Origin: an uncultured Bacteroidota bacterium
Lineage (GTDB): Bacteria; Bacteroidota; Bacteroidia; Flavobacteriales; Flavobacteriaceae
Assembly (NCBI GenBank): GCA_913047695.1
Contig: CAJWUI010000007.1
Coordinates: 1 to 64,000 of the forward strand
Direction: 5' to 3'
Length of the DNA: 64,000 bases
Both the position numbers and the translations under genes were made by a program. The notes beneath the pieces were generated by a model. The model had not been told where the DNA came from. It did not search any database and was given only the letters and a program-made list of their open reading frames with translations. Within the stretch, counting starts at the first letter, position 1. The number at the start of each line of letters is the position of its first letter. This document shows, piece by piece, positions 13,501 to 19,513 of this stretch.

Positions 13501-13566
13501 AAATAATTAACAAACCAGTAGTTTTTTTAGTTTTTTTATTCATTTTTCTAATCATTTGTATATTTA

Positions 13567-16500
13567 ATGACTAAATTTTGTAGCCATCAAACAAGCACTT
13601 AGCCTTTTAGTATTTTTACTTTTTCAGATTTCATTTTCCCAAGGGATTGTTCAGAATGGTAATACTATAGAGTGTGATGGTACTGCTGTCGGTGATAGTG
13701 CTTCAATAGGAGGTAAAACAATCTATGTAGTAGATAGAGATGCACTTATCTCAATTGTAGAAAATGGTGATTTCACTTTCACTCCCTCTGGATCTGCTTC
13801 GTCGACTACAGTTACTCCAACCGATTTAAGTTGTGTTTGTACCTCCAATATAACTGATATGAGTTTTATATTTAAAAGAGACGGAGTTTATGGGAAGTCA
13901 AACTTTAATACAGACATTAACAATTGGGATGTCAGTAATGTAACTAGTATGCAATCAATGTTTGAAGAGGCTAGTAACTTTGACAATCCACTCAATTACT
14001 GGGACGTTAGACTTGTTGAGAACATGCAAGCAATGTTCAAAAATGCAGCATTATTTAATAGAAGTTTAAATGATTGGGATGTATCAAATGTAAAAAACTT
14101 TGCCGCAATGTTTCAATCAGCATCTGTGTTTAATAAATCACTTGATAACTGGGTTTTATCACCACAGCTTACGAATCTAAACTATATGTTTTGGGAGGCT
14201 ACAAGATTTAATCAACCTTTAGATAACTGGGTTACAACTAACATAAAATCACTTCAAGGCACGTTTAGAAAAGCAAGAGATTTTAATCAGGATTTAAGCA
14301 CTTGGGACGTAAGTGAAGTCACCCGTATGGATAAACTTTTTTACGGTGCTGCTTCGTTTAATGGTGATATAGATAATTGGCAAGTGCAGAAAGTAATACG
14401 ATTGTCTGAAACTTTTAGAGATGCAATTAGTTTTAATAGGAATATTTCTGGGTGGCAAACATTAAAGCTACAGTTTATGAATTGGACATTTGCAAATGCT
14501 GAAAGTTTCAATGTAGACATAAATAGTTGGGATGTTGAGGAAGTTGTAAATATGAATTATCTATTCAGAGATACTGACATATTTGACCAACCATTAAATC
14601 TGTGGAAAACATATAAGTTAAAATCGACAGAAGGAACATTTTATAAAGCAATAAAATTCAATAGACCTTTAGATGATTGGGATACAGATGAGGTTACAAA
14701 TATGAAAAATATGTTTTTTGAAGCAGTTGAATTCAACAATGGTCAAAGTGGTGGGGTTTCTAACACATTAAGCTTTAATATGTCTTCGGTCAAAAACACA
14801 CAAAGCATGTTTTGGAAAGCATCTAAATTTAACGCGCATCTTTCAGGTTGGGATTTAGGTGAAGTTACTGAAATGGCGTCAATGTTTCGTGATTCAAATT
14901 GGAATAATGGAGCGAGTGCTGGGGTCTCCACAACATTATCTTGGAATGTTGAAAAAGTTAAAAATATGAGTAATATATTCCTTAATAATGGTGCGTTTAA
15001 TGCTAATATTTCTGCTTGGAACCCTTTAAGTGTTGAAGGCTTAAGCTCAGCTTTCGCAAATGCATCAGCTTTTAATAATGGGTTCCCTCCCGGATCTGCA
15101 GGGACAGCAACTATCTCCAACACATTAGATTGGAATATGCCCCGCTTATATAGTGAGGATACTCGGGCTGCCCGAGGTTTGGGATTAGGGAGTACTTTTT
15201 ATAAAGCCACTGCATTTAATTCGTATGTAAATAATTGGAACGTTTCTTCTATTCATAACATAACCAACATATTTTATGATGCTACTTCTTTTAATCAACC
15301 TTTAGATAATTGGAATGTTGGGAATATAGAGTTTATGGAAAATGCATTTAGAGGTGCCACATCCTTTAATCAGCCCATAGGTAATTGGGATGTTACTTCA
15401 GTAGAAAAATTTAACAATATGTTTCTGGGAGCATCAACATTTGACCAGGATATATCATGTTGGTGTGTTCCTAATAACCCTGAAAGAAACAACTTTAGCA
15501 ACGCCTCTCCTATAGATGCTAAACCAAACTATATACCTCGATGGAATCTGCCCTGTTCTCCCATTTTAACTATGGATGATTCTTTTTCCCTTGCCGGAGA
15601 TGATACTTTGATTGGCCCAGGCGAGAGCATAACATTCACAGCTAGTTTTGACAGGGACATCGCAAGTACGGTATCATACAGCTTGAATGGAAGTTCAATT
15701 TCTTCAATGACTGCTGTAAACTCAACAACCTTCACAGTCTCCATAGCTGCAAATGATTTAGCTGATAATACTTATTTGTTTACAATAGAGACTACCGATT
15801 ATTGTGGAGCTAGTTATAATCCTGCTGATGCTACTTTAAATGGAAGTGAAACAGCTACTGATACCATTGAATTTACTGTCGATAAAACACCTCCAAATGT
15901 TACTCTAACGCATAATCATCCAGACAACATCCTCTCAGGTAGTGATACTGTGGAAATTACCGCAACATTTTCTGAAGGAGTTGTATCTCCTACTTTAAGT
16001 CTTGACGGGTTGTTTGCAAATGCCGCAATGACCGGTTCCACATCCTCTGTTTGGACCTATAATATTGATATTACCACATTAACAGTACCCCCTTCAGGCG
16101 ATGATTACTTTGTAACAATAAATGCCAGTGATCCAGCTGGTAACAACTATACTTCATCTACAGGAATTCAAGATGGTAATGAAACCTCTGTAGATAGTAT
16201 CACTTTTACCATTGATAATACACCACCGACAGTAGTTTTAACAGATAGTGATCTTGATGATATTGTTTATCCAGCAGACTCAATAACAGTTACAGCAACA
16301 TTTTCTGAAGCTATGACAAGCGCACCACAAATTAGTTTTTCAGGTGGCCCACAAGATATAAACATGTCCGCTACAAGCTCCCCATCAGTTTGGACTTTTG
16401 TGTTTGACTTTCCATCATACTCTCTTCCAAGTGGAATTTATACCCTCACAGTAAGTGGCACTGATATTTCAGGAAACCCGTATTCAGGGAGCGAAGATGT

Positions 16501-19500
16501 TGAACTTGATTACCAGTTAACAGCACCAACTCTAACCATTTCAGACACAATACTTGACTATGTTTTTGATCAGACATTTCCTCTAACTGCTACCTCAAGT
16601 GGTTCGGGAGCTTTATCTTTTAGTATTGCAAACCCATCGGTCGCAACTGTCAGTGGGTCTACAGGAACTATTAAAGCAGCAGGCTCAACAATTATAACAG
16701 TAAACCAAGCCGCATCAGGTAATTATGCGGCGGCAACAGCAACAGCAACCCTACTAATTAATAAAGCCGTTCCCTCTATAACCAGTTCAAATGTTCTAAC
16801 AAAAATATACGGAGATCCTGTATTTCCTTTAACAGCCACATCAAGTAGTACCGGAAGTTTTACATATCAAGTCTCAGATACTAATATTGCCAATATTGTG
16901 AGTTCTAATGTGGTATCAATTACAGGTGTTGGAACAACAACAATTATTATTACCCAGGCTGAAGATTCAAATTTCTCAACTACAAGCAAGACTATAACAC
17001 TTTTTGTTGATACAGCAGTACCTGAAATACAGAATCTCCCTTTCATAACTAAGATTTTTGAAGACATCTTTCCCGTATCAGAGATTTCAGCAACCTCGAG
17101 CAGCACAGGAATATTTTCTTATACCGTTTCGGACTCTTTAATAGCAACTGTTTCAAGTAATACGATTGTTACCACAGGGGCTGGAACGACAACAATATTT
17201 ATTACCCAATTAGCCGATGGTTTCTATAAGTCTGCTACATCATCTATAACTTTAATTGTAAATAAGGCAATTCCTACAATAATTTTTAATGATGAGACTG
17301 TTACCTACGACAATAGTAGAGTTTTTGGTATTTCTGCCACCTCAAGTAGTACAGGGAGTTTTACCTATTCAGTAGCAGACACAGATGTTGCAAGAGAATC
17401 TACACAATCACAAGCAGGAACGATAAACCCTACGCCAAACAAATCAACTTTTAGAACCAATATAACTAGCCAAACATTTTCGTTCAAAACACGCAAATCT
17501 GGTCAAACTCAAATTACAGCCTTTCAAGATGAAGACAGTAATTATCTAGCAGCATCTGCTACTATGTCTCTTACTGTACTTAAAAAAGATTTGTCTGGTG
17601 ACTGGTACCCTCCAACTTCAATATTTACAAGAGTTTATGGTATTCCACCTTTTGAAGTAATCCGACCAACTGTTGAATCAGATTACTCAGGGACATTTAA
17701 TTATAGATCAGCAGATGCAAGTATTGCGAGTTTCTCTACATCAACAATTACTATTAGCAGTACGGGAACAGTTGCCCTTTTTGCTGATATATCTGGGGAT
17801 GATAAATATAACGCCAAAACTGTAACAGCCACTCTTATCGTTGAAAAATCAAATCAATCAATAATTGTTGAACCATTACCAAATGAAAAGCCATTAAAAG
17901 ATTTCACGTCCCTTACAGTATCTGCAACATCGACATCTGGTACTCCTGTAACAATTTCACTTGTAAGTGGATCTGCAGCAAGTCTTTCAGGTTCTGTAGG
18001 CAATTATTCATTAAATAACATTAATCAGACAGGCTTAGTAACAATTACCTTTACAGTTCCTGAAAGTCAAAATTATTACTCTGCAACAGTGACTGCAGTA
18101 ATTGATGTTGTAAAAACTAATCAATCAATTACTGTAAGTCCAGTAGCACCTACTTTTATTTACTACCAGGAGAATTTAGTTTACACAATAAATGCCTTTT
18201 CTGACTCTTCATTGGCTGTAACATATGGATTAGTATCAGGCACTAATGCTACACTTTCTGGAAATGTATTAAATATTTCAGATATAGGGGAACTAGTTGT
18301 TGAGATAAATCAACCAGGGAATAATATCTATAATCCTGCAATCACAAAAATAGAAGTTATAAAAGTTATTCAAGGAATAACCAACTTAAGTAATTTTAAT
18401 ATACCGGATAAAAATGTTGATGATCCTGATTTTAGAATTCCACCACCAACTTCAAATAGACCCCCCTTTACTTTTAATTACACCTCCTCTGATCCAAGTG
18501 TAGCTGAAATTTCTGGAGATCAAATAATTATTAGACGCCCTGGTTCAACAGTAATAACTGCAAGACAAAACTCTAATAGCAAATTTAATACAGGATCCAT
18601 TACTACAATATTTAATGTCTTTGACAATGATTGTGATGGTGACGGGATAGGAGATTTTGACGACCCTGATGATGACAATGATGGTATACCGGATGAGAAA
18701 GAGCTACAATATGGTACCGATATTTGTGGTTTCGATCCAGATTGTGATCAAGACGGTATCCCCGATTCATTTGATAATGACGACGATAATGACGGCTGTC
18801 CCGATGAAGAAGATTTTTATCCGTGTGACCCAACTAAGTGTGATGACGACTCCGACAAAGATGGAATATTAGATTCTCAAGATAATTGTATTTTTATATC
18901 CAACCCTGACCAAGAGGATACAGACGGTGATGGAGTAGGTGATACGTGTGATAACTGCCCTTTAGAAGCCAATCCTGACCAGGAGGATACAGATGAGGAT
19001 GGAGTAGGTGATGCTTGTGATAATTGCCTATCAGAAGCTAACCCAGACCAAGAGGATATCGATGGTGATGCAGTTGGAGATGCATGTGACAACTGCCTGT
19101 CAGAAACCAATCCTAACCAAGAGGATTCTGACGGGGACGGTGTAGGTAATGCATGTGATAATTGTGTTGATGCTAGTAATCCATTACAAGTAGATTCAGA
19201 CGGAGATGGTATTGGAGATGAATGTGATAGTGATCCTTTTAATTTAGAAATTAAAATTTCTGAGTTTGTTTCACCTAATGGTGACGGTATAAACGACTTT
19301 TTTGAGATCCAAAACATTGAAAATCACCCAAATAATGAGCTTCTAATATATACCCGATCAGGAGTAGTAATTTTCTCTACAAGAAACTACAGAAACAACT
19401 GGAGTGGCACTACAGACAATGGATTAGTCCCAGAAGGGAGTTATTATTTTACCGTAGATTTAGAAGGCGACGGCACTATAGACAGGCAGGGTTGGATATA

Positions 19501-19513
19501 CATATCAAGATAG
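13567..19513 (+). CDS. giant mosaic surface protein (DUF285/BspA-like repeats, Ig-like domains, TSP3 repeats, T9SS type-B CTD), with an apparent 1-nt frameshift in its signal peptide
   Basis: The ORF track starts at an internal ATG (13859), but the same frame continues upstream to 13571 encoding [34 protein letters not shown]… (signal peptide) without any ATG/GTG/TTG. The ATG at 13567 (MTKF) is one base out of phase across TTTT 13576-13579. Confidence 0.85.
13898..15480 (+). repeat. ~16 DUF285 (BspA-like) ~24-aa repeat units within the giant protein
   Basis: Recurrent FNxxLxxWDVSxVxxMxxMFxxAxx units in the translation. Confidence 0.9.
18881..19225 (+). repeat. five tandem 69-bp units encoding thrombospondin type-3 Ca-binding repeats
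   Basis: DNCxxxxNPxQxDxDGDGVGxxC x5; unit starts at 18881, 18950, 19019, 19088, 19157. Confidence 0.9.

Follow-up and report, generated by a model that had tools for sequence, protein, structure and literature searches.

The gene considered here lies in contig C7 of the genome of an uncultured flavobacterium from a marine genus (G000; 1.96 Mb in 18 contigs), within the 64,000-nucleotide stretch of DNA that was analysed as a whole and is called the window below. The part of this genome that was read has a G+C content of 31.7%. Translation of the open reading frames reveals a forward-strand frame at 13571-19513 that is open, stop to stop, for 1,980 codons (Table 1). Six stretches of DUF285 are found in the encoded protein, together with TSP3 repeats and a type B sorting domain of the type IX secretion system (T9SS), the last over the cut-off. 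The match to DUF285 (Pfam) reaches 457.8 bits (cut-off 25) and that to the PARCEL repeat TIGR02167 (NCBIfam) 50.5 bits (cut-off 30), while the sorting domain is matched by TIGR04131 with 57.0 bits (cut-off 35) and by CHU_C with 86.2 bits (cut-off 27). Judged by these matches, the giant protein is a DUF285/PARCEL-repeat protein and, by its C-terminal domain, a predicted type B T9SS cargo. A T9SS C-terminal domain requires that the protein first be exported by Sec, and the N-terminus encoded by the long frame appears by eye to be a typical Sec signal peptide, strictly conserved.

Table 1. Features of the giant gene and of the region just upstream (positions in the window)
Feature	Position	Strand	Basis and remarks
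33-nt AT-rich block, probable promoter and/or leader	13536..13568	+	invariant in alignments of five, then six loci
Out-of-frame ATG, not a conserved start	13567..13569	+	ATA in G028, other frame in G031/G010
TTTT tract	13576..13579	+	same in six genomes: neither sequencing error nor variable
Whole gene, AUC start to stop (proposed)	13586..19513	+	1,975 aa, DUF285/PARCEL-repeat surface protein; domain matches and orthologs
ATC, proposed start codon (AUC)	13586..13588	+	invariant in six genomes; placed by the onset of coding constraint
Signal peptide of 19 codons, with cleavage proposed ahead of G at 13643	13586..13642	+	translation; recognised by eye; only synonymous variation among five intact genes
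Best TSP3 repeat stretch	18911..18982	+	domain search, residues 1781-1804
C-terminal type B T9SS sorting domain (CHU_C / TIGR04131)	19250..19504	+	domain search, residues 1894-1978

The difficulty with this gene is its beginning. The frame offers no ATG, GTG or TTG before the ATG at 13859, which is 91 codons past the ATC at 13586, and the resulting front of 96 codons free of canonical starts is the largest among the 1,090 open reading frames of at least 180 aa in the 1.55 Mb read; in that set the distance from the upstream stop to the first canonical start has a median of 4 codons and a 99th percentile of 36. The ATG that precedes the signal peptide is +1 out of phase with the giant frame, a stop closes its own frame after 11 codons, and the TTTT tract lies between it and the signal-peptide codons. 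The initial annotation had described this layout accurately, both the frame open to 13571 with no canonical start before 13859, as the translation confirms, and the ATG one base out of phase beside a TTTT tract, as can be read from the DNA itself. It had interpreted the layout as a signal peptide cut off from its sole ATG by an additional T, and had proposed that orthologs in sister strains be compared.

Such orthologs were found in independently assembled genomes of one genus, intact in G017, G031, G010 and G028, with bodies of 1,995-2,054 codons, and as a remnant in AG-916-A19 (L063). The latter was the only addition from a search of a genome collection, the other four matches being records already counted among the G genomes, and five closely related intact genes (this one included) could be compared. 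The TTTT tract is unchanged in all six genomes. The position of the ATG, on the other hand, reads ATA in G028, and in G031 and G010 an extra A between the ATG and the tract places the ATG in the third frame, where a TAA follows MTKIL and where joining the ATG to the long frame would need a -1 shift instead of the +1 shift needed in the others. Because the ATG is not conserved and its frame differs among species, the arrangement is explained neither by a lost base nor by a single programmed shift. Stops in the giant frame sit immediately upstream in every ortholog, and the five intact genes have their first canonical codon 91-115 codons downstream; G017 lacks the ATG at 13859, and its first canonical codon stands 24 codons further on.

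The ATC at 13586 is invariant in all six genomes and is the sole conserved near-AUG codon before the signal peptide. Among the 20 codons that begin with it, seven vary between the five intact genes, and all seven variable codons are synonymous, with none non-synonymous (p of about 2e-4 if changes are modelled simply as independent); in the next 70 codons the ratio is 16 synonymous to 19 non-synonymous. This pattern shows coding constraint on the stretch that had been read as a signal peptide at the front of the long frame. The two variable codons ahead of the ATC (GTA/ATA and GCC/ACC) both alter the residue. AG-916-A19 retains only about 137 codons of the gene, with other sequence in place of the remainder, and its signal peptide carries a nonsense change (TTA to TAA) and a missense change (CAG to CAT). 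With the peptide decayed where the body is lost, the constraint disappears along with the protein. The RNA around the ATC is unstructured (z +1.5), and every genome compared has purines at -3 and -6, which comes close to the preference for A-3/A-6 described in Flavobacterium johnsoniae (PMC6847099).

The locus combines a conserved frame, a conserved ATC, the lack of any canonical start, purifying selection from the ATC onward and a C-terminal sorting domain. The comparison places a near-AUG codon, the ATC, exactly where coding constraint appears to begin, and by alignment no canonical start precedes the conserved coding in several species, as would be expected of a gene of the non-canonical-start kind. 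We consider it probable that the giant gene is translated from the AUC at 13586. The feature itself is real and not an artefact, with a probable conserved AUC start replacing the earlier interpretation of a broken one. An ATC or ATT start had been listed among the original options and emerges as the best of them, since the ATC is invariant and only synonymous changes follow it; the comparison of sister strains upheld the unusual start and went against the extra T.

The nearest competitor is a start two codons earlier, at 13580, which would yield the same signal peptide with two additional residues. All genomes have this place open and in frame, and the codon there is AUA in G028, G031 and G010; yet it is GTA here, in G017 and in AG-916-A19, and the codon that follows changes its residue, whereas the ATC never varies. 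Furthermore, AUC matches the initiator anticodon better than GUA does: IF3 reportedly accepts no pairs but Watson-Crick ones at the first two bases (PMC10158994). We infer that AUC is chosen over the neighbouring RUA codon, and regard the earlier start as rather unlikely. A canonical internal start, at 13859 or later, would give a cytoplasmic protein without a signal peptide. The ATG at 13859 is indeed the first canonical codon and the one that a gene caller restricted to ATG, GTG and TTG picks, but its absence from G017, the purifying selection on the signal peptide and a C-terminal domain that presupposes Sec export are all at odds with such a product, and this reading seems very improbable.

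Initiation at the ATG at 13567 followed by a frameshift in the TTTT tract, whether programmed or by slippage, is suggested by the single base that separates this ATG from the long frame in the present genome. It fares a little worse still, given the ATA in G028, the opposite shift needed in G031 and G010, where the frame of the ATG ends after five codons, and the constant length of the tract among the six genomes. The same facts dispose of the two earlier proposals of this type: a phase-variable or fixed frameshift is contradicted by the constant tract and the ATA of G028, and a programmed +1 shift by the missing ATG in G028 and the -1 shift required in G031 and G010. Pictures like this one usually come from single-base differences, and an error in sequencing or assembly, or a gene that broke recently, would for that reason be the ordinary suspicion. 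An error had also been proposed at the outset, but the identical TTTT sequence recurs in five other independently assembled genomes, four of them with an intact gene body, and leaves this explanation with almost no credit.

Starting from the AUC at 13586, expression of the giant gene would run as follows. The AUC would be read by initiator fMet-tRNA (two tRNA-Met(CAT) genes were found in a check for the initiator), the signal peptide would route the 1,975-aa protein through Sec, and the C-terminal domain would then route it via the T9SS to the cell surface. By analogy with known systems, such a start is expected to give weak synthesis of the ~1,975-aa protein that depends on the level of IF3: initiation at the AUC is likely to be weak and is possibly IF3-sensitive. 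Weak initiation could keep a costly surface protein low or growth-dependent, as for infC and Streptomyces sigR, and the AUC may be tuned to this end or merely tolerated. The IF3 of the genus was checked as a possible cause, and it shows three private differences only, nothing telling.

The invariant 33-nt block upstream is probably the promoter or leader of the gene, as its conservation suggests; promoter elements sought by eye within it gave no clean match. A distance of 85 nt separates the gene from the end of its upstream neighbour, which varies among the genomes, and for these reasons the giant gene would have no supply of ribosomes from an upstream gene. G017, G010 and G028 (L043, L045, L046) carry about 1 kb of extra sequence after the esterase and ahead of the giant gene; this genome, G031 and AG-916-A19 lack it. 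A search of viral contigs for relatives found none, and a search elsewhere in G000 for a repeated cassette of promoter and signal peptide returned only short AT-rich matches. Another giant protein of this genome (2,204 aa, in C4) and a distant homolog in G011 differ from the gene at 13586 in that each has an ordinary in-frame ATG ahead of its signal peptide.

Starts other than ATG, GTG and TTG are disfavoured by IF3, a property that infC and Streptomyces sigR exploit for control (PMC5472188). The infC gene starts with ATT in E. coli and with ATC in Streptomyces (PMC5472188), and it resembles the giant gene in having an AUH start kept across species at a conserved N-terminus that lacks ATG, GTG and TTG. 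The two differ in that infC is autoregulated by its own product, whereas the product of the giant gene is a predicted exported surface protein; the giant gene moreover sits in a phylum lacking Shine-Dalgarno signals. The GTC start of sigR and its repression by IF3 were demonstrated by mutation and Western blot (PMC5472188). The likeness here is a rare start on a gene whose product may need to be kept low and whose start is misplaced by ordinary annotation, while the experimental basis for sigR contrasts with a start that is comparative only for the giant gene. Two further kinds of gene were considered as counterparts and set aside: phase-variable (slipped-strand) genes, given a TTTT tract that is the same in six genomes and an ATG that is not conserved, and programmed +1 frameshift genes, given that neither the upstream start nor the direction of the shift is common to the orthologs.

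Conserved starts besides ATG, GTG and TTG are very uncommon. Of 61,358 ancestral AUG starts in 36 groups of close genomes, only two had changed to CUG and one to AUU (PMC5622118). With a giant secreted product that depends on its signal peptide, and apparently fixed on AUC in five species, the gene would be a clean natural case of such a start. It also exposes a fault of annotation, in that gene callers limited to three start codons remove the signal peptide and make a surface protein look falsely cytoplasmic. It is probable that the giant gene joins the known class of genes with non-canonical starts; its setting is unusual, and several companions occur in its genus.

These companions came from a survey of 1.55 Mb of G000, read in stretches, in which open reading frames were ranked by the length of their canonical-start-free front. 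Near the top stood further genes whose protein homology clearly begins before the first canonical start, and several genes of the genus besides the giant gene appear, from their alignments, to start at AUC, AUU, AUA or CUG. A PtsI-like gene (G000:C7:68089-68928; L145), outside the window and directly behind an HPr gene, has ATC as its natural start. The PEP-utiliser N-terminal domain is complete from residue 6 in a domain search, the gene begins ATC AAA ACA CTT in the clade, and ATC, ATT or ATA stands at the homologous place in 15 genomes of the genus, a few of which have an upstream TTG as a possible alternative start. The gene for LspA, the lipoprotein signal peptidase (Peptidase_A8; G000:C2:71938-72594, L162, plus L163-L191), begins with CTG in 26 of 30 genomes of the genus, with ATT in two and with TTG in two, while the neighbouring codons vary; most other genera read have ATG at this start, and a few TTG or GTG. 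Nearly fixed on CUG within a genus, in a phylum whose initiation does not use Shine-Dalgarno pairing, LspA would be another clean natural case.

A family-2 glycosyltransferase gene (G000:C5:27105-27803) opens with ATT AAA straight after the stop of the upstream gene and runs for 85 codons without a canonical start. Ribosomes finishing an upstream gene may be used by this gene, PtsI and LspA, a source that the giant gene could not draw on. The infC gene, encoding IF3, has ATA at its conserved N-terminus across the genus and in nearly all members of the family that were read. It is tempting to see in these genes (the adhesin-like giant, PtsI, LspA, the glycosyltransferase, infC and others), kept across many species, a group tuned by IF3 in a phylum devoid of Shine-Dalgarno signals, by which the fidelity of initiation would regulate cell-surface and metabolic genes, but we consider this extension doubtful.

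A comparison with 800 kb of G001 (587 pairs of open reading frames) yielded mostly conserved 5' leaders with an ordinary ATG, plus shadow reading frames; beyond LspA it gave one candidate, a Smr-domain-like gene likely to be started by AUU or AUA. A Mur-ligase-like gene, also a candidate, has TTG in this genome (L121 / G000:C4) and ATA at the same place in G001:C1. A 268-aa secreted-looking protein without a Pfam match, encoded on the minus strand of G000:C2 near 22375, opens with ATT AAA; it has no close upstream gene and forms a second uncoupled case beside the giant gene. The survey also met a split gene, which we take to be that of RF2 (prfB), as expected for a known programmed frameshift.
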